Below are positions 1,486 through 10,881 of a stretch of DNA of 64,000 nt, in pieces. The stretch's first letter is position 1. Each line of letters opens with the position of its first letter. The DNA lies in contig NC_019683.1 of the NCBI RefSeq assembly GCF_000316605.1, positions 372,001 through 436,000 on the forward strand, given 5' to 3'. A program made the translations under genes and the position numbers. Source of the stretch: [Leptolyngbya] sp. PCC 7376 (GTDB taxonomy: Bacteria; Cyanobacteriota; Cyanobacteriia; Cyanobacteriales; MRBY01). Under the pieces are notes generated by a model that was not told the DNA's origin, did not search any database, and saw only the letters and a list, made by a program, of their open reading frames with translations.

Positions 1486-3192
1486 TTACATACAGTTTCG
1501 AGCTGAACTTAAACGACAATCTATTTTTCGAGGAAAACCAACCGTTACTTTTGTCCCTTGGTTAGGCTCGCTAGTATAAGAAATCTTTCCACCACACATA
1601 TCTAAACACCCTTGAACAATGGATAACCCCAATCCAGTCCCTGGAATTGTGCCAACATTAGCACCTCGATGAAAGGGTTCAAAAATAGAGTCTTGATCAT
1701 CAATATCAATCCCGATACCATAATCTTTGATAATTACAATCACCTGGGAAGCCAAACCTTTTAATTGGATATCAATATGACGACTATCTAGGGAATATTT
1801 AATGGCATTTGATAAAAGATTATTGAAAATTTGACCAAGAATTTTAGGATCATTTTCAAAGGGTTCTATTGTCCCTTTAACTTCCAAATTAATAGCATAG
1901 CTTGGTTTTTTCAATTTATATTCTTCAATTTGCTCTAATAAAAAATCCGAAATATTAACCGGTGTCGATTGTATTGGTATCTGCCCTCTTTCTATCTGAT
2001 TAAAGAAGAGCATATCTTCGATCAAATGATTCATATGACGGACTTTATTCTCGATCATATTCAGCAATTTTTTTTGAGCAGCCTCTGGTAGACTCGCACC
2101 ATGAATTCTCAATGTAGAAGCTGAGGCCAAAATTGAAGCTAATGGTGAGCGATATTCATGAGAAACAGTACCGATAATTTGGGACTTTAGAGCATTCAGT
2201 TCTTGCTCTCGCTGCAAGGATCGTTCGGTTTTAGATAACAATTCCGCCTGCTGAATGGCGATCGCCAACTGTAAAGATAATAATTTGATTAATTCTGTCT
2301 CTTCAATCGTCCAACAACGCGGTTCATCACATTGATGGGCAATCAGTAACCCCCAGAGTTGGGTTGACTGCGACTGATCCGATGAATTACGGCTAGTCGT
2401 CGTAAGTAAAATCGGTACAACTAGATTAGCTTTGACCTGAAATCGTTCTAACAGTTCAATGTGACAGGACGTTAATCCTGCTCGCTGAATGTCATTAATC
2501 GTCGTACATTTACCCTGGACATAATACTGAGCGCCATTATTTTGAAAGCAAGTATCAACGATTTTTTGTCCTAAGGTCGATTGATATTGAGAATTGACTG
2601 ATTCTGCTACGATGACACCGCTCATATCCAATTCACATTTATAAAGCAGCACCCGATCACACTCTAGTAACTGACGGGTTTCAACTGTTGCCTGTTCAAG
2701 AACTTGTTCTAGATCCAGACTCTGGCGAATGCGGAGCGCGATAGAGGTAATAAGACTTTGGCGTTGTTTGCTTTTGTGCAGTCGAGTTTGTAAATTTGAC
2801 TGCTTTAAAACATTTCGCACTGTAGATTGCAAACTTTCAGGCGTTATTTGTCGTTTAACAAGATAATCATAGGCTCCTTGTTTAATGGCCTGAACGGCGA
2901 TCGCCTCATTACCTTGGCCGGTCATCATCACCACAGGAATCTGAGTATTAGATGTCTGGAGAATTTCGAGGAACTCCAGTCCATTCATATCTGGCAAATT
3001 AAAATCCAGCAAAATCAGATGACACACATGAGCATCTAAAAGCTGAAGGCCATCTTCACCAGTATCCGTACCTACAGTCAGATAACTTTGATGGGTATCA
3101 CGCAGCAAAAACTGTTCATAGATATCTCGCTCATCAGGAGAGTCATCAATGATCAAGACAGTTAGAGACTGAGAATCTAATATTTTTTCCAC
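1486..3192 (-). CDS. Receiver-GAF-histidine kinase with DXCF cyanobacteriochrome motifs
   Basis: A 568-residue hybrid kinase without membrane segments. Residues about 10-130 form a receiver domain with phospho-acceptor Asp63 (LLDFNLPDMNG). Residues about 150-315 form a GAF domain with VDTCF (Cys215) and TSCHIELLERF (Cys243-His244), followed by VKANLVVPIL. These are the two cysteine sites of DXCF-type cyanobacteriochromes, which covalently bind a bilin and usually sense blue or green light. A HisKA domain with His345 (TVSHEYRSPL) and an HATPase domain with GTGLGLSIV complete it. It is the last gene of a same-strand cluster with an Rcp1-like regulator and a phytochrome, so a light role fits. 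Domain calls are firm; bilin binding is inferred from the cysteines and context. Confidence 0.9.
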   Translation of the reverse strand: MEKILDSQSLTVLIIDDSPDERDIYEQFLLRDTHQSYLTVGTDTGEDGLQLLDAHVCHLILLDFNLPDMNGLEFLEILQTSNTQIPVVMMTGQGNEAIAVQAIKQGAYDYLVKRQITPESLQSTVRNVLKQSNLQTRLHKSKQRQSLITSIALRIRQSLDLEQVLEQATVETRQLLECDRVLLYKCELDMSGVIVAESVNSQYQSTLGQKIVDTCFQNNGAQYYVQGKCTTINDIQRAGLTSCHIELLERFQVKANLVVPILLTTTSRNSSDQSQSTQLWGLLIAHQCDEPRCWTIEETELIKLLSLQLAIAIQQAELLSKTERSLQREQELNALKSQIIGTVSHEYRSPLASILASASTLRIHGASLPEAAQKKLLNMIENKVRHMNHLIEDMLFFNQIERGQIPIQSTPVNISDFLLEQIEEYKLKKPSYAINLEVKGTIEPFENDPKILGQIFNNLLSNAIKYSLDSRHIDIQLKGLASQVIVIIKDYGIGIDIDDQDSIFEPFHRGANVGTIPGTGLGLSIVQGCLDMCGGKISYTSEPNQGTKVTVGFPRKIDCRLSSARNCM

Positions 3193-3305
3193 ATTCGTGT
3201 CTGCTGTTCGTCCAACTCAATCCCGGTTAAATCGGTCATCTTCCAAAAACTTTAGGGATTAGTCAAGACACAACAACATAGTAAAAATATATAGTTATCG
3301 TAACA

Positions 3306-3755
3306 TCAAACAACTTGCGGCAAAGTGTTGGCATTCAACCAAAAATCAACAAATGCTTGTACCGTAATTCTCATTTGTTCAAAGTTAATTGGCTTAACCA
3401 GATAACCATTTGCACCATGGCGATAGCAAAAATCAATGTCTTGAGGATTACTAGAGGTCGTGAAGATAACTATCGGCATTTTTTTGAAGTTCTCATCTTC
3501 CTTAAGCTGCTCTAACACTTCACGGCCATCAGTTCCTGGCAAATTTAGATCTAGCAGTACCACTGATGGCTGGGGGATCAATTGCTTATTTGTATAGGCT
3601 CCTTTATAGGATAAAAAATCTAGAGCATCATCCCCATCTTTGCAACGATAGATAGGTTGCTGGATATTCATATCACCCAAAAATTCCATCAAAACAGTAA
3701 AGTCTTCGTCGTTATCTTCAACAACTAATAGGGGAGATTTCAACAATTTATCCAT
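3306..3755 (-). CDS. rcp1: Single-domain response regulator, Rcp1 type
   Basis: A 149-residue stand-alone receiver domain. The acidic pocket (VVEDNDED), phospho-acceptor Asp69 (LLDLNLPGTDG), switch residues IFTTSS and the conserved Lys in GYLVKPIN are all present. The C-terminal FVDFWL segment is typical of Rcp1-type regulators, where the aromatic pair supports dimerisation. It sits between the phytochrome gene, 98 bases upstream, and the hybrid kinase gene, 113 bases downstream, on the same strand. In Synechocystis the phytochrome Cph1 phosphorylates Rcp1, encoded next to it. No output domain is present, so it passes signals through protein contacts. The family call is very safe; the partner is inferred from position. 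Confidence 0.92.
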   Translation of the reverse strand: MDKLLKSPLLVVEDNDEDFTVLMEFLGDMNIQQPIYRCKDGDDALDFLSYKGAYTNKQLIPQPSVVLLDLNLPGTDGREVLEQLKEDENFKKMPIVIFTTSSNPQDIDFCYRHGANGYLVKPINFEQMRITVQAFVDFWLNANTLPQVV

Positions 3756-3853
3756 ATAGAAAAGAGGGGGCCAGGAAGAAATGTGAACTTATTTGAACAA
3801 ATATTAATGTCATCAAACCCTATTGTCTGAATATTTAATTTTTAATTTAGGAA

Positions 3854-6193
3854 TCATCCACCATTTTTCTTTTGGAAATCGTCTGGATCTGATATCTCAG
3901 CCGCAGCCTTTTCTGAACAGGATGTGTTCAGTGTGAAGTAGAATGTCGAACCTTTTCCATAATCACTAGTTACCCAGATCGTTCCACCGTGATGTTCAAT
4001 AATTTTGCGGGTTATTGTGAGACCAACTCCAGTACCGCCACCAAATTGCTCACGGCCATGGAGTCGTTTAAATAGCGTGAAAATTTTGTGTAGATGGCGA
4101 TCACGGATCCCAATGCCATTATCTTTCACATAATAAATGAACTGATTTTTGATGTGATGTTCTTTGGCGATCACTCCAAACTCATCATCATCAGGGGCTA
4201 AGTAGCCAATTTCTACGAGTTTGTGAGATTGCGTATTGTATTTGAGGGCATTATTGAGCAGATTACTAAAAGCTTCTCTAATGACGATTGGGTCAACCTT
4301 CACAATCGGTAGCGATCGCGGTATCACAAACTCCGTTATTGCTTGCTCGTGATTCAGTTGTAGAAGATTCATCTCTTCACTCAAGATGACATTGAGATCC
4401 GTGACCTGCCGTTTAATTTCAGTCTGACCTAAACGCGAGAAATACAGCAACGCTTCAATCAAAGATTGCATCCGCTGGGTCAGCTTCATAATTGTCGCTA
4501 AACGCTTAACCCCTTCCTCTTCCAATGCGTCTGGGTAATCTCGAATCATCAAGTTGGCATAATTATAAATGCCGCGTAATGGTTCCTGTAAATCATGGGA
4601 AGCTGCATACGCAAAAGAATCAAGCTCTTTGTTACTGCGCTGTAACTCTAAATTAAGGTTGGCAAGCTCATCAGCTTTATTCAGGACAATACCCACTAGA
4701 GAACTACGTAGCTCCAAAGCAATCTTGATATCTGAGTCACGCCAAGGTAACGAACGATGATGTACTGTTTCTTTCCACACTTCAAATGATCGCCGTGGTG
4801 AAAGTTCTAAGTCACCATCATCATTTTTTACCAGCTGAGCTTCTGGCTCTCCAGCCCATTTAATCGTCTGGGAAACCTCTGGGCGAAACCAAAGGATAGA
4901 ATACTGACGCACTTTCGAGATTTGTAGCAGAAAAATACCACTAGCGATCGCCTGAAAATTTTCGGCTGGCAAATACTCTTCCGCTAGCGCTTCTGTATAA
5001 AAAATATTGTTTTCTATTTTCGAGTTTGCCCAAGAAAGAAAGTCTCGAATGTCTTTGATCTCTGGTGTTTTGCCAATACAGGTAATCTCCCCATCAAGGC
5101 AAATTGCAGCACCATGAGCATCTATTAAGGCAAGCAGGGTTTGATCCGGCTCAGTTAATGCAGTTTGTAAATCATCGGCCTGGGCGATCGCCTCAATAAA
5201 TTCCGATAAGTAGGCTTGTTGTTGTTTTTGAGCCTGAAGTTCCGTGTAGTTCAGTTTATTATTCAGCTCCAAACACATCAATTTCCCCAGAAAAACACAA
5301 GCTGTTCTAATGTCACAGGGGATATGCTTTGGGCTTGAATGATGACAATTAATCAGTCCCCATAATTGCCCATCTTTGATCAACGGCATCACCATAGAAG
5401 CTGCAACATCCATATTTTGGAGATATTGGACATGACAAGGCGATGGTGGCCTCAGAATTGCATAGCTCAGATCAAGAAGCTCTGAATCATTCAATGCGAG
5501 CAAAGGTATAGGTTCATCTTCAACATCAGAAATAAGCCGCAAAGCATTCATCTGGAACAACTCACGGGCCGAGACTGGAATGTCAACATTTGGAAAATGC
5601 AAACCTAAGTATGACGTCATGTGTTCCGCTTTGCTTTCTGCCTCTATTATCCCAACCCCATCGCGATCAAAACGATAGACCAAAACCCGTTCAAATCCAG
5701 TTAAATGGCGAATTTTTTCGACGAAAAACAACAATAAATTACGTAGATAAGTAACTTGCTGCATTTGCATCAAAGCATCTTCAAGAACCTCCTGAAAAGA
5801 GGCGATATTTTGTTTCGACTTAGCTTCAGTGGGTTCTAATTCAAGAATAAGAAGCTCTTCTATCTGATGCATAAGAGCAGAAAAACAACATTGCTTTCCT
5901 TGCACTTCAATTGCGAAATGATGCGTTTGAGGAGTATGAAATTGTTTATTTAGAATGGCCTCTAGATCAAGAATTTGCTGTTCAGAGAAAATGAAGTGTA
6001 GAGATTCTCCAAGTAACTTTTCTGCAGTTTGATCTAAATATGACGAGACATTTTGACTCACATGCTCAATCACAAAAGTTGTCGGATTAACAGCCAACAA
6101 AAAACCATGGGATTGTATTGCACCCGGAGTCCTCACTGGAAACCCCTCTGGATATCTGTCGAATAGTTCTTGTTGCTTAGCAGCTTGTGCCAT
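3854..6193 (-). CDS. cph1: Cyanobacterial phytochrome histidine kinase, Cph1 type
   Basis: A 779-residue red/far-red photoreceptor kinase with the order PAS (about 20-120), GAF (about 140-310), PHY (about 320-500), HisKA and HATPase. The chromophore site is visible as Cys253-His254 (SPCHVQYLQNM), and the DIP motif begins at Asp204 (DIPVSARELF). The PHY tongue has WFRPE at 435-439 and PRRSF at 466-470, both diagnostic of true phytochromes. The phospho-acceptor is His533 (ASHDLQEPLRG), and the ATP site has DNGIGI and GGTGVGL. A Cys in the GAF domain fits phycocyanobilin rather than biliverdin attachment (inference). It is the first gene of the cluster with the Rcp1-like regulator and the cyanobacteriochrome-like kinase. 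All key residues are intact. Confidence 0.96.
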   Translation of the reverse strand: MAQAAKQQELFDRYPEGFPVRTPGAIQSHGFLLAVNPTTFVIEHVSQNVSSYLDQTAEKLLGESLHFIFSEQQILDLEAILNKQFHTPQTHHFAIEVQGKQCCFSALMHQIEELLILELEPTEAKSKQNIASFQEVLEDALMQMQQVTYLRNLLLFFVEKIRHLTGFERVLVYRFDRDGVGIIEAESKAEHMTSYLGLHFPNVDIPVSARELFQMNALRLISDVEDEPIPLLALNDSELLDLSYAILRPPSPCHVQYLQNMDVAASMVMPLIKDGQLWGLINCHHSSPKHIPCDIRTACVFLGKLMCLELNNKLNYTELQAQKQQQAYLSEFIEAIAQADDLQTALTEPDQTLLALIDAHGAAICLDGEITCIGKTPEIKDIRDFLSWANSKIENNIFYTEALAEEYLPAENFQAIASGIFLLQISKVRQYSILWFRPEVSQTIKWAGEPEAQLVKNDDGDLELSPRRSFEVWKETVHHRSLPWRDSDIKIALELRSSLVGIVLNKADELANLNLELQRSNKELDSFAYAASHDLQEPLRGIYNYANLMIRDYPDALEEEGVKRLATIMKLTQRMQSLIEALLYFSRLGQTEIKRQVTDLNVILSEEMNLLQLNHEQAITEFVIPRSLPIVKVDPIVIREAFSNLLNNALKYNTQSHKLVEIGYLAPDDDEFGVIAKEHHIKNQFIYYVKDNGIGIRDRHLHKIFTLFKRLHGREQFGGGTGVGLTITRKIIEHHGGTIWVTSDYGKGSTFYFTLNTSCSEKAAAEISDPDDFQKKNGG

Positions 6194-6410: not shown

Positions 6411-7394
6411 TTACTCTTCAACTGCGCTAACAAACTCTTCTTCAACCTCAACAGTATCAGCCGCAGCTTCCTGTTCTTCAACAGTGAGACCAGCCGCTTC
6501 AGCAAGCAACTTCTGGCGGTACTTCTCAGCCATTTCCTCAGCCTTCTCAAACACAAGCTCGCGATTCTTGAGCATATCACCAGGTTCAGGCTCAAGCTGC
6601 TTCGTAGAAAGGGAAATACGACCACGCTCAGCATCAAGATCAATGATCATTACCTTCAGCTCGTCATTCACCTGAAAGACGCTGTGAGGTGTATCGATAT
6701 GATCATGAGAGATTTCAGAAATGTGGAGCAGACCGCTAACACCACCGATGTCAATAAATGCACCATAGGGCTTAATACCGCGGACGGAACCAACAACAAC
6801 TTCACCAACTTCCAGGCCATTCATCTTACGCTCAACAAGCGCACGACGATGACTAAGGACGAGGCGGTTACGATCTTCATCAACCTCTAGGAACTTGAGA
6901 GGAAGTTCTTGACCAACCAAGTCTTCTTTTGCTTGGCGAGTGCTGATGTGAGAACCGGGGATAAAGCCGCGTAGACCTTCGATGCGAACTAACGCACCAC
7001 CACGGTTTGTCGCGAAAACAAGGGAGCGAACGGTTGCATCTTCTGCCTGAAGCTGGCGAACACGTTCCCAAGCACGCATGTACTCGATACGACGAATGGA
7101 GAGCGTCAACTGACCATCTTCATTTTCATCGGTAAGGATAAAAAATTCGCGTGTTTCTTCCGCCTGTAAAACTTCATCGGGAGCATCAACACGGTTGATG
7201 GACATCTCCTGAATAGGAATATATGCTGCTGTTTTTGCACCAATGTCAATCAGTGCGCCTCTAGGCTCCATACTGAACACTGTACCGGGAACAATATCCC
7301 CAGGACTAAAGTGGTAATCGTACTTATCTAAAAGCGCGGCAAAATCTTCGTGGGTAAAACCAATATCTACTGTAGTTGTGTTCTGACTGACCAT
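6411..7394 (-). CDS. rpsA: 30S ribosomal protein S1
   Basis: A 327-residue ribosomal protein S1, which binds mRNA and supports translation initiation on the small subunit. Three S1/OB domains follow one another: FSPGDIVPGTVF near residue 30, a central domain near 110-180 containing GLRGFIPGSHIS, and GEVVVGSVRGIKPYGAFIDIGG near 197-220 leading to GLLHISEISHDHI. The length of about 330 residues with three domains is the usual cyanobacterial form, shorter than the six-domain proteobacterial S1. The tail is rich in Glu and Val. It lies downstream of nrdR and psbT on the same strand, separated from nrdR by a long leader. Confidence 0.96.
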   Translation of the reverse strand: MVSQNTTTVDIGFTHEDFAALLDKYDYHFSPGDIVPGTVFSMEPRGALIDIGAKTAAYIPIQEMSINRVDAPDEVLQAEETREFFILTDENEDGQLTLSIRRIEYMRAWERVRQLQAEDATVRSLVFATNRGGALVRIEGLRGFIPGSHISTRQAKEDLVGQELPLKFLEVDEDRNRLVLSHRRALVERKMNGLEVGEVVVGSVRGIKPYGAFIDIGGVSGLLHISEISHDHIDTPHSVFQVNDELKVMIIDLDAERGRISLSTKQLEPEPGDMLKNRELVFEKAEEMAEKYRQKLLAEAAGLTVEEQEAAADTVEVEEEFVSAVEE

Positions 7395-8853: not shown

Positions 8854-9780
8854 ATGGTAGATATTCGACAGTATCAAGTAACAGCAGAAGCACAGGGACA
8901 AAGACTCGATCAATGGTTGTCGCTGCAATTAGATGATCTCTCACGATCTCGTATCCAAAAGCTTATTGGTCAGGGTCAAGTTGCTATTAACGAAAAGGTA
9001 TGTACGACTAAAAAATATAAGTTGAGTGGGGGTGATCGCCTGCAGGTGACAATTCCAGCACCAGTGAGTTTAGAGCTCCAACCGGAAGCGATGGATCTAG
9101 ATATTCTGTTCGAGGATGACCATTTTCTGATCGTCAATAAGGCAGCAAATGTAGTAGTGCACCCAGCTCCAGGTCATTACACAGGCACATTAGTCCATGG
9201 TTTGCTTGCCCATTGTGGCGATCGCCTCGCAGGGATTGGTGGAGTACAACGGCCAGGAATTGTACATCGATTGGACAAGGATACGACCGGGGCGATCGCT
9301 ATCGCCAAAACAGATCAAGCTCACCAACATTTACAGGCACAGATTAAAGCAAAAACCGCACGACGAGAATATTTAGGTGTTGTTTACGGTTGTCCGCAGC
9401 AACCAGCTGGCATCGTTGAAGCTCCTATCGATCGTCACAAAATCGATCGAAAAAAGATGGCGGTCATCGAGTCTGGTCGTCCGGCGCTTACCCGTTGGGA
9501 ATTACAGGAAAGACTGGGTAATTATTCGCTGCTTTATTATCGTCTGGAAACAGGGCGAACCCATCAAATTCGGGTACACAGTGCCCATATGGGACATCCG
9601 ATTGTCGGTGATCCGCTCTATTCCAGCAATCGTACTCTCAAAGTAAACTTAACCGGTCAAGCTCTCCACGCCCGTAAGTTAATTGTTGAACATCCGATAA
9701 CTGGTGAAATAATCGAAGCGATCGCCCCATTACCTCCAGAATTTGAGAAGTTATTAAAAGTTTTGCGGCAGCGCTGCTAG
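8854..9780 (+). CDS. rluD: RluA/RluD-family 23S rRNA pseudouridine synthase
   Basis: A 308-residue pseudouridine synthase that isomerises uridines in large-subunit rRNA. An S4-like RNA-binding domain occupies about residues 15-75 (RLDQWLSLQLDDLSRSRIQ). The catalytic domain has the HRLDKDTTGAIAIAKT motif with its catalytic Asp near residue 138, and the later GRTHQIRVHSAHMGHPIVGD motif. The ATG at 8854 is preferred because GGAG at 8843-8846 lies 7 bases upstream; an upstream in-frame start at 8800 adds 18 residues unlike the family. The 3' end overlaps the convergent receiver-kinase gene by 27 bases. The exact rRNA target site is inferred. Confidence 0.92.
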   Translation: MVDIRQYQVTAEAQGQRLDQWLSLQLDDLSRSRIQKLIGQGQVAINEKVCTTKKYKLSGGDRLQVTIPAPVSLELQPEAMDLDILFEDDHFLIVNKAANVVVHPAPGHYTGTLVHGLLAHCGDRLAGIGGVQRPGIVHRLDKDTTGAIAIAKTDQAHQHLQAQIKAKTARREYLGVVYGCPQQPAGIVEAPIDRHKIDRKKMAVIESGRPALTRWELQERLGNYSLLYYRLETGRTHQIRVHSAHMGHPIVGDPLYSSNRTLKVNLTGQALHARKLIVEHPITGEIIEAIAPLPPEFEKLLKVLRQRC

Positions 9781-10881
9781 CGCAGGGACTTCTACCTGAA
9801 AAATTGTCCCGGTTGGTTGATTATCCACCACAGAAATTTCACCACCATGAGCTTCGACCACCATTTTGCAAAACGTTAGACCCAAGCCCGTTTGCGGCAA
9901 ATTAAATGGTTTCTGATCAATACTATATTTTTGGAAAATTGAGTCTTTCTTCTCATTCGGGATGCCTTGTCCCCAGTCTTTTACTGCAAATCTCAAGAGC
10001 GCATTGCCAGACACAGGTTCGATTGTCGAGGTGAGTGCAATCTCAATTGCGGTTTGAAACGGCGAAAATTTAAGGGCATTTGTCAATAAATTATTTAAGA
10101 CCCGCGCCAACAAAGGGCGATCGCCTGTAAAAGTCTCTAGTAAACCATCAGCAAACACAATTTGAATCTCAACTTTCCTTGATCTCGCCAGATCCTGAAA
10201 ATCAGCAACAACATCTTCCACCCACTCTCGGACTACAAAACATTGTTTCTGCAACGTCAAAGATCCAGCTTCCGCTCTGCCATAGGTCAAAAAATCATTC
10301 CGAAGACCATCTAGAACTCTAGCTGCCCGGCGAATGCGCGTTAGGCCCTGCGCCACCTTTTCTGGCAATTCCATGCGATTTAGGATTTCTGTTTGCAGTA
10401 AAAGCGTCGTAATTGGGTTAGTGAAATCATGGACAACCATATCCGTCAGATCGTTTCTTAACTGACGCGAATTTTTGAGCGCATCATACTGAAATTTAAT
10501 GCGCAGCATCGAAATCACTCTAGCTCGCAGCTCGACCTTATTAATGGGCTTCGCAAGGAAATCATCAGCTCCGCTCGCCAGACAATCTGCCAAATAATCA
10601 GAACCCAAAGCAGTAATCATAATGACTGGAATATGCTGCCATTGTGGATTTTTTCGTACATGTCGGCAGAAGCCAAAACCATCCATCACCGGCATCATCG
10701 CATCAATAAGGATCAGATCTGGTAGATGTTTTTCCAGTCTCGCCAAAGCATTTTGGGCAGAGCCAACATAACTCAGTTGATAGTCTTCAGTAAATAAAAA
10801 CCCTTCAATGACATCGAAGTTATCGGGTTCATCATCAACAATCAGAATATGTGGAGTTCTAGGAAAAGCAGGATAACTCAT
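9754..10881 (-). CDS. Receiver domain-histidine kinase hybrid
   Basis: A 375-residue soluble signalling protein. Residues about 10-125 are a receiver domain with Asp60 (LILIDAMMPVMDG) and the conserved Lys in FLAKPINKVELR. A HisKA-like helical domain carries His151 in MVVHDFTNPITTLLL, and an HATPase domain contains VLNNLLTNALKFSP, DWGQGI and TGLGLTFC. The order receiver then kinase means it probably takes phosphate or a signal from another kinase and passes it on. It is a different gene from the photoreceptor kinase at 1486-3192, lacking any GAF domain. No output regulator is adjacent. The target is unknown. Confidence 0.9.
   Translation of the reverse strand: MSYPAFPRTPHILIVDDEPDNFDVIEGFLFTEDYQLSYVGSAQNALARLEKHLPDLILIDAMMPVMDGFGFCRHVRKNPQWQHIPVIMITALGSDYLADCLASGADDFLAKPINKVELRARVISMLRIKFQYDALKNSRQLRNDLTDMVVHDFTNPITTLLLQTEILNRMELPEKVAQGLTRIRRAARVLDGLRNDFLTYGRAEAGSLTLQKQCFVVREWVEDVVADFQDLARSRKVEIQIVFADGLLETFTGDRPLLARVLNNLLTNALKFSPFQTAIEIALTSTIEPVSGNALLRFAVKDWGQGIPNEKKDSIFQKYSIDQKPFNLPQTGLGLTFCKMVVEAHGGEISVVDNQPTGTIFQVEVPALAALPQNF

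Follow-up and report, generated by a model that had tools for sequence, protein, structure and literature searches.

A phytochrome operon of [Leptolyngbya] sp. PCC 7376 with a second, receiver-bearing kinase, and the apparent decay of its light sensor among relatives

What does a second sensory kinase contribute when it is encoded directly behind a phytochrome and its response regulator? The question is raised by three genes on the minus strand of a 64,000-nucleotide stretch of [Leptolyngbya] sp. PCC 7376 (NC_019683.1, positions 372,001 to 436,000; this whole stretch is referred to as the window), which code for a phytochrome, an Rcp1-like regulator and a histidine kinase (HK) with its own receiver (REC) and GAF domain. 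To our knowledge, little is known downstream of cyanobacterial phytochromes beyond Rcp. The trio exemplifies an operon that is widespread, and comparison of the third gene with its relatives indicates that this second light sensor has decayed repeatedly while the receiver stayed intact. What is conserved looks like input by receiver phosphorylation, for which the neighbouring phytochrome is the probable source, and light sensing looks optional. Judged by its residues, the kinase of the window keeps both inputs and is an unusually complete example of a receiver-gated kinase beside phytochromes. Its parts are:

1486 to 3192, minus strand: REC-GAF-HisKA-HATPase kinase resembling PPHK (phosphorylation-responsive photosensitive histidine kinase), 568 aa, GTG start
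2821 to 3159, minus strand: receiver domain, aa 12-124 (Pfam Response_reg), site D16, D17, D63, T91 and K113 complete
2254 to 2715, minus strand: GAF domain of the cyanobacteriochrome (CBCR) type, aa 160-313 (Pfam, tree and fold)
2545 to 2556, minus strand: DXCF motif, here DTCF, aa 213-216, with the second cysteine Cys215 (codon 2548-2550)
2461 to 2466, minus strand: canonical Cys243-His244
1984 to 2187, minus strand: HisKA, aa 336-403 (Pfam), phospho-acceptor His345
1525 to 1851, minus strand: HATPase_c, aa 448-556 (Pfam), with N, G1 and G2 boxes

Both cysteine motifs lie exactly where a preliminary description of the locus had placed them, and they are not chance occurrences, because the homologous positions hold both in dozens of related GAF domains. 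The kinase shares domain order, complete receiver site and canonical Cys-His with the PPHK-like REC-CBCR-HK proteins, and its GAF shares with the DXCF group the motif cysteine at the homologous position and the canonical Cys-His in a CBCR-type domain.

The comparison covered about 700 sampled cyanobacterial genomes, in which 100 loci around good matches were annotated. Phytochrome, rcp and REC-GAF-kinase genes were consecutive on one strand in 65 of these loci, the window included; since loci were chosen for good kinase matches, this is not an estimate of prevalence. When the subtype of the window kinase was detected by receiver and kinase scores, both partners stood beside 39 of 47 members, and several of the remaining eight lay at a contig end or next to a broken partner. 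Phytochrome-rcp-REC-CBCR-kinase is thus a recurrent kind of operon and not singular to the window, and the 65 triples rule out a chance adjacency of three genes. A description of the triple as an operon class was not found in the literature searched, the coverage of which was partial. The earlier view of the third gene as an extension of the cph1-rcp1 unit held insofar as a REC-CBCR-kinase does follow phytochrome and rcp; the arrangement is a common one and no singular extension.

For the decay of the light sensor, 48 kinases of the window subtype were counted, with outgroups and fragments excluded. A recognisable bilin pocket was lost in 40 of them, Asp213, Phe216 and His244 being replaced by many different residues, gaps per pair growing from about 6 columns to 41 and GAF identity falling to 0.36, compared with 0.49 among intact forms at a broadly similar divergence of the kinase halves. 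Nevertheless, the receiver site (Asp, Asp, Asp, Thr, Lys) was complete in 40/40 of the degenerate-GAF kinases, as were the ATP-binding boxes that were checked, and the phospho-acceptor histidine was present in 38/40. For one of these proteins, an AlphaFold model had mostly good confidence in receiver and kinase and values of 50-70 in the old pocket. Loss of the pocket together with retention of the receiver site makes receiver phosphorylation look like the selected input and light an optional one. In a REC+HK tree from which the GAF columns were excluded, degenerate and intact forms were interleaved, and at least four label changes were forced by well-supported branches; as the groups of relatives are clades, numbers of sequences do not equal numbers of independent events. 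In one family (f33), many members retain a cysteine near the canonical position without a following histidine, so that for these a total lack of bilin can only be presumed.

The reverse of the usual decay was observed as well. Two window-type kinases (L227, 6023-7729; L228, 926-2608) have a DSYF/Cys-His GAF and a lost receiver site, with the residues HSDAT and HSDVT, respectively, instead of DDDTK. No phytochrome or rcp was found alongside either of them, L228 lying near a contig end. A link between exit from the operon and loss of the receiver site was considered and set aside, as altered sites occurred in L225, L227 and L228 only, which are too few.

The assignment of the GAF domain of the window to the DXCF-type cyanobacteriochromes, as proposed in the preliminary description, is supported by motif, tree and fold. 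Among the 78 GAF domains of a tree, it grouped with cyanobacteriochrome GAFs and fell into a clade of 42 (support 96) whose commonest state is DTCF/CH. The nearest solved structure by sequence was PPHK (6OAP, 271 bits over residues 9-321, i.e., REC+GAF). An AlphaFold model of the window kinase (mean pLDDT 86), used as Foldseek query, likewise placed six PPHK chains at the top of the list (44% identity, TM up to 0.87 by target length), with the blue-absorbing TePixJ GAF 4FOF lower down (TM 0.85, 36% identity). By GAF sequence score, TePixJ ranked below PPHK, RcaE and NpR6012g4-type structures. Because the TePixJ sequence was absent from the GAF tree, the DXCF placement rests on the motif, the relatives and the 4FOF fold match. 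Dual-cysteine DXCF GAFs typically have a blue-absorbing dark state and isomerise phycocyanobilin (PCB) to phycoviolobilin (PVB) (PMC11284453; PMC6628166; PMC5578081), which makes blue/green the default expectation here; by this analogy, the domain would bind a bilin and respond to blue and green light. The genome is equipped for phycocyanobilin synthesis: it encodes two heme oxygenases along with PcyA, PebA and PebB, each of which scored above its NCBIfam cut-off. About 15 further CBCR-like GAF matches occur in the same genome; a contig scan gave remote kinases only and was not used.

The first two members of the trio, upstream of the kinase, are:

3854 to 6193, minus strand: Cph1-type phytochrome histidine kinase, first gene of the trio, 779 aa (Pfam PAS_2-GAF-PHY-HisKA-HATPase_c)
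5435 to 5437, minus strand: codon of the phytochrome bilin cysteine, Cys253, in the motif SPCHVQYL
3306 to 3755, minus strand: Rcp1-like single-domain response regulator, 149 aa (Pfam Response_reg alone)

The phytochromes of such operons are of three sorts, namely 39 with Cys-Cys, 23 in which the canonical cysteine is missing and six with Cys-His. All Cys-Cys phytochromes (e.g., VDPCCVEYHQNM; L117, L118, L120, L148 and 35 more) form one clade (support 99), and the third-gene GAF beside them is always degenerate or single-cysteine (39 operons). Those without the canonical cysteine mostly have an N-terminal one instead, which by analogy would make them biliverdin-type, and 17 of these 23 stand beside a dual-cysteine GAF. 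The six Cys-His phytochromes are those of the window and genome G482, both with dual-cysteine GAFs, that of genome G533, and three standing beside other kinase types, of which one is dual-cysteine. Within the window's subtype, a Cys-His phytochrome combined with a dual-cysteine GAF was thus found in only one other sampled genome. The Cys-Cys clade has as its sister group the phytochromes of the window, G482 and G533 (support 100), and the kinases of these three form one clade inside the subtype; phytochrome and kinase have thus been inherited together. For the window itself, phytochrome and kinase have identical nearest relatives and their trees match, which, along with the gene order in 65 triples, bears out the earlier assumption that the three genes belong together. 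In G533, whose operon is closely related to that of the window, the rcp position (L221, about 5200-5900) is a broken frame with a stop codon and a frameshift; of the two cysteines of its third-gene GAF, the canonical one is lost and the second kept.

On this basis, it is probable, though well short of settled, that the third gene of the phytochrome operon encodes a PPHK-like kinase gated jointly by its receiver and its dual-cysteine GAF. The phytochrome would report red and far-red light by autophosphorylation and would pass phosphate to Rcp and most probably also to Asp63 in the receiver of the third protein. Its GAF would probably bind phycocyanobilin at Cys243, with a second, reversible thioether at Cys215, and may isomerise the pigment to phycoviolobilin, thereby sensing blue light (dark state) versus green or teal. 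Receiver state and GAF photostate would act on one continuous signalling helix to set the histidine kinase activity, the output of which would go to a partner regulator. That one operon compares red/far-red with blue/green light, as suggested in the preliminary description, is a fair hypothesis. Several observations weigh against parts of this mechanism. The nearest neighbours of the window in the GAF tree have altered pigment sites, G482 reading DTCF with Cys-Tyr and G533 reading HTCF with the canonical cysteine changed to glycine, so that the pigment chemistry seems to be drifting in this small clade. The PPHK GAF belongs to another lineage of the tree and is without the second cysteine, and the tree holds no characterised DXCF sequence, the window's clade consisting mostly of uncharacterised DTCF GAFs. 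Besides, the phosphate on the receiver could come from another kinase or from the protein's own kinase.

A broader reading, to be held tentatively and at somewhat less than even chances, is that many cyanobacteria possess a two-kinase relay, in which the phytochrome addresses the receiver of a second kinase, a former light sensor whose pocket was repeatedly lost and which still responds to phosphorylation; the window, retaining both inputs, would integrate red/far-red and blue/green light. An unlikely alternative is a receiver-gated relay kinase with incidental light sensing, in which the route from phytochrome via receiver to second kinase is what is conserved and the GAF of the window may still bind bilin but would contribute little. 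The 40 of 48 wrecked pockets with complete receiver sites, the nearly invariable linkage of the third gene to phytochrome and rcp and the altered canonical Cys-His in two relatives of the window's small clade agree with it; nevertheless, the window kinase retains both cysteines, the Asp motif, the histidine and the overall GAF, and where GAFs of the subtype are intact, they are conserved as well as their kinase halves (0.49 vs. 0.47), from which a light input still under selection where kept would follow.

Considerably less probable still is a third kinase that works independently of the phytochrome, in which case synteny would reflect shared light regulation and the receiver would obtain its phosphate from its own histidine kinase or from a different one. 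Three window-type kinases (L116, L129, L226) do keep the receiver site without an adjacent phytochrome, transfer from the phytochrome to Rcp or the receiver is itself deduced, and a further REC-kinase lies nearby (9754-10881). Still, such independence is difficult to reconcile with 65 conserved triples, with matching phytochrome and kinase phylogenies and with the covariation of phytochrome class and GAF state. A GAF swapped in from a DTCF family with another catalytic half, suggested by good scores against the GAFs of such kinases, is very improbable and was rejected, as the REC+HK and GAF trees concur in joining the window to L221 and L222 (supports 100/99 and 96).

The layout of the trio is compact. 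On the minus strand, the phytochrome (Asp motif PNVDIP) is followed after 98 nt by the Rcp-like gene and after a further 113 nt by the kinase, all three reading frames lying exactly as described before and their domains being recognised by Pfam. The regulator has the phospho-acceptor Asp69 and Lys121 that are kept among relatives, and the starts of related kinases lie at about the same position as the GTG start. A scan of the two gaps gave no promoter- or terminator-like match, which is weak evidence, and the trio is presumably co-transcribed. The trio is flanked upstream by a ribosomal-protein-S1-like gene in the same orientation (6411-7394), a terminator-like hairpin occurring at 6356-6339, and downstream by a convergent gene (651-1445). 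A few kb upstream, a further REC-histidine kinase of 375 aa without recognised GAF (9754-10881, minus strand) is a possible signalling partner.

Phytochrome and kinase were not found in five congeners at the thresholds used. In three of them (L272, L273, L274) the S1-like gene and the gene at 651-1445 adjoin each other directly, and nothing of the trio could be detected there. The GC content of the trio (40.0%) is below that of the two flanking genes (47-48%) and of the window (44.4%), and the nearest relatives of kinase and phytochrome (about 52% identity) belong to organisms outside the order. The empty site in congeners and the lower GC make horizontal acquisition likely, with loss of the trio in the congeners as the alternative. 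The own genome further encodes a second phytochrome-type protein of 926 aa (L268, 7389-10169), without adjacent rcp or REC-GAF-kinase gene.

The new aspect is the comparative one, i.e., pocket decay with receiver retention, the trio itself being not unusual. This conserved third gene, in which the receiver site is invariant and the light sensor can be dispensed with, is a tangible candidate for what acts next after the phytochrome. Moreover, the two-, one- and no-cysteine forms of one syntenic gene are natural variants for probing what light input contributes to a phosphorylation-gated kinase.

Compared with known systems, the window shares with Cph1-Rcp1 a Cys-His PAS-GAF-PHY histidine kinase followed by a single-domain Rcp-type regulator, and differs by its additional third gene and by a phytochrome whose clade is sister to the Cys-Cys phytochromes carrying this type of third gene. 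With the DXCF cyanobacteriochromes TePixJ and Tlr0924 it has the DXCF cysteine and the canonical Cys-His in common, although these have MCP or GGDEF architectures in place of REC-GAF-HK. The closest counterpart is PPHK of Leptolyngbya sp. JSC-1 (PDB 6OAP/6OAQ/6OB8), which has the same order of receiver, CBCR-type GAF and histidine kinase, is homologous in sequence and fold over REC+GAF, and has been suggested to operate together with a photoreceptor upstream of it. Like the window kinase, most of its closest relatives (59-72% identity) occupy the third position in a phytochrome-rcp triple. Nevertheless, PPHK reads DQYF, without second cysteine, where the window reads DTCF, and the GAF clades are separate. 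PPHK is described, in work as cited in PMC8584932, as a dual-sensor kinase that combines phosphorylation with light in a molecular "logic OR", and its green-absorbing state lies at 562 nm (PMC11480761). Thus, a kinase that combines a receiver input with a light input already exists in PPHK, and the window kinase, by its predicted domains, would work like PPHK, yet by its GAF is not a close member of that group.

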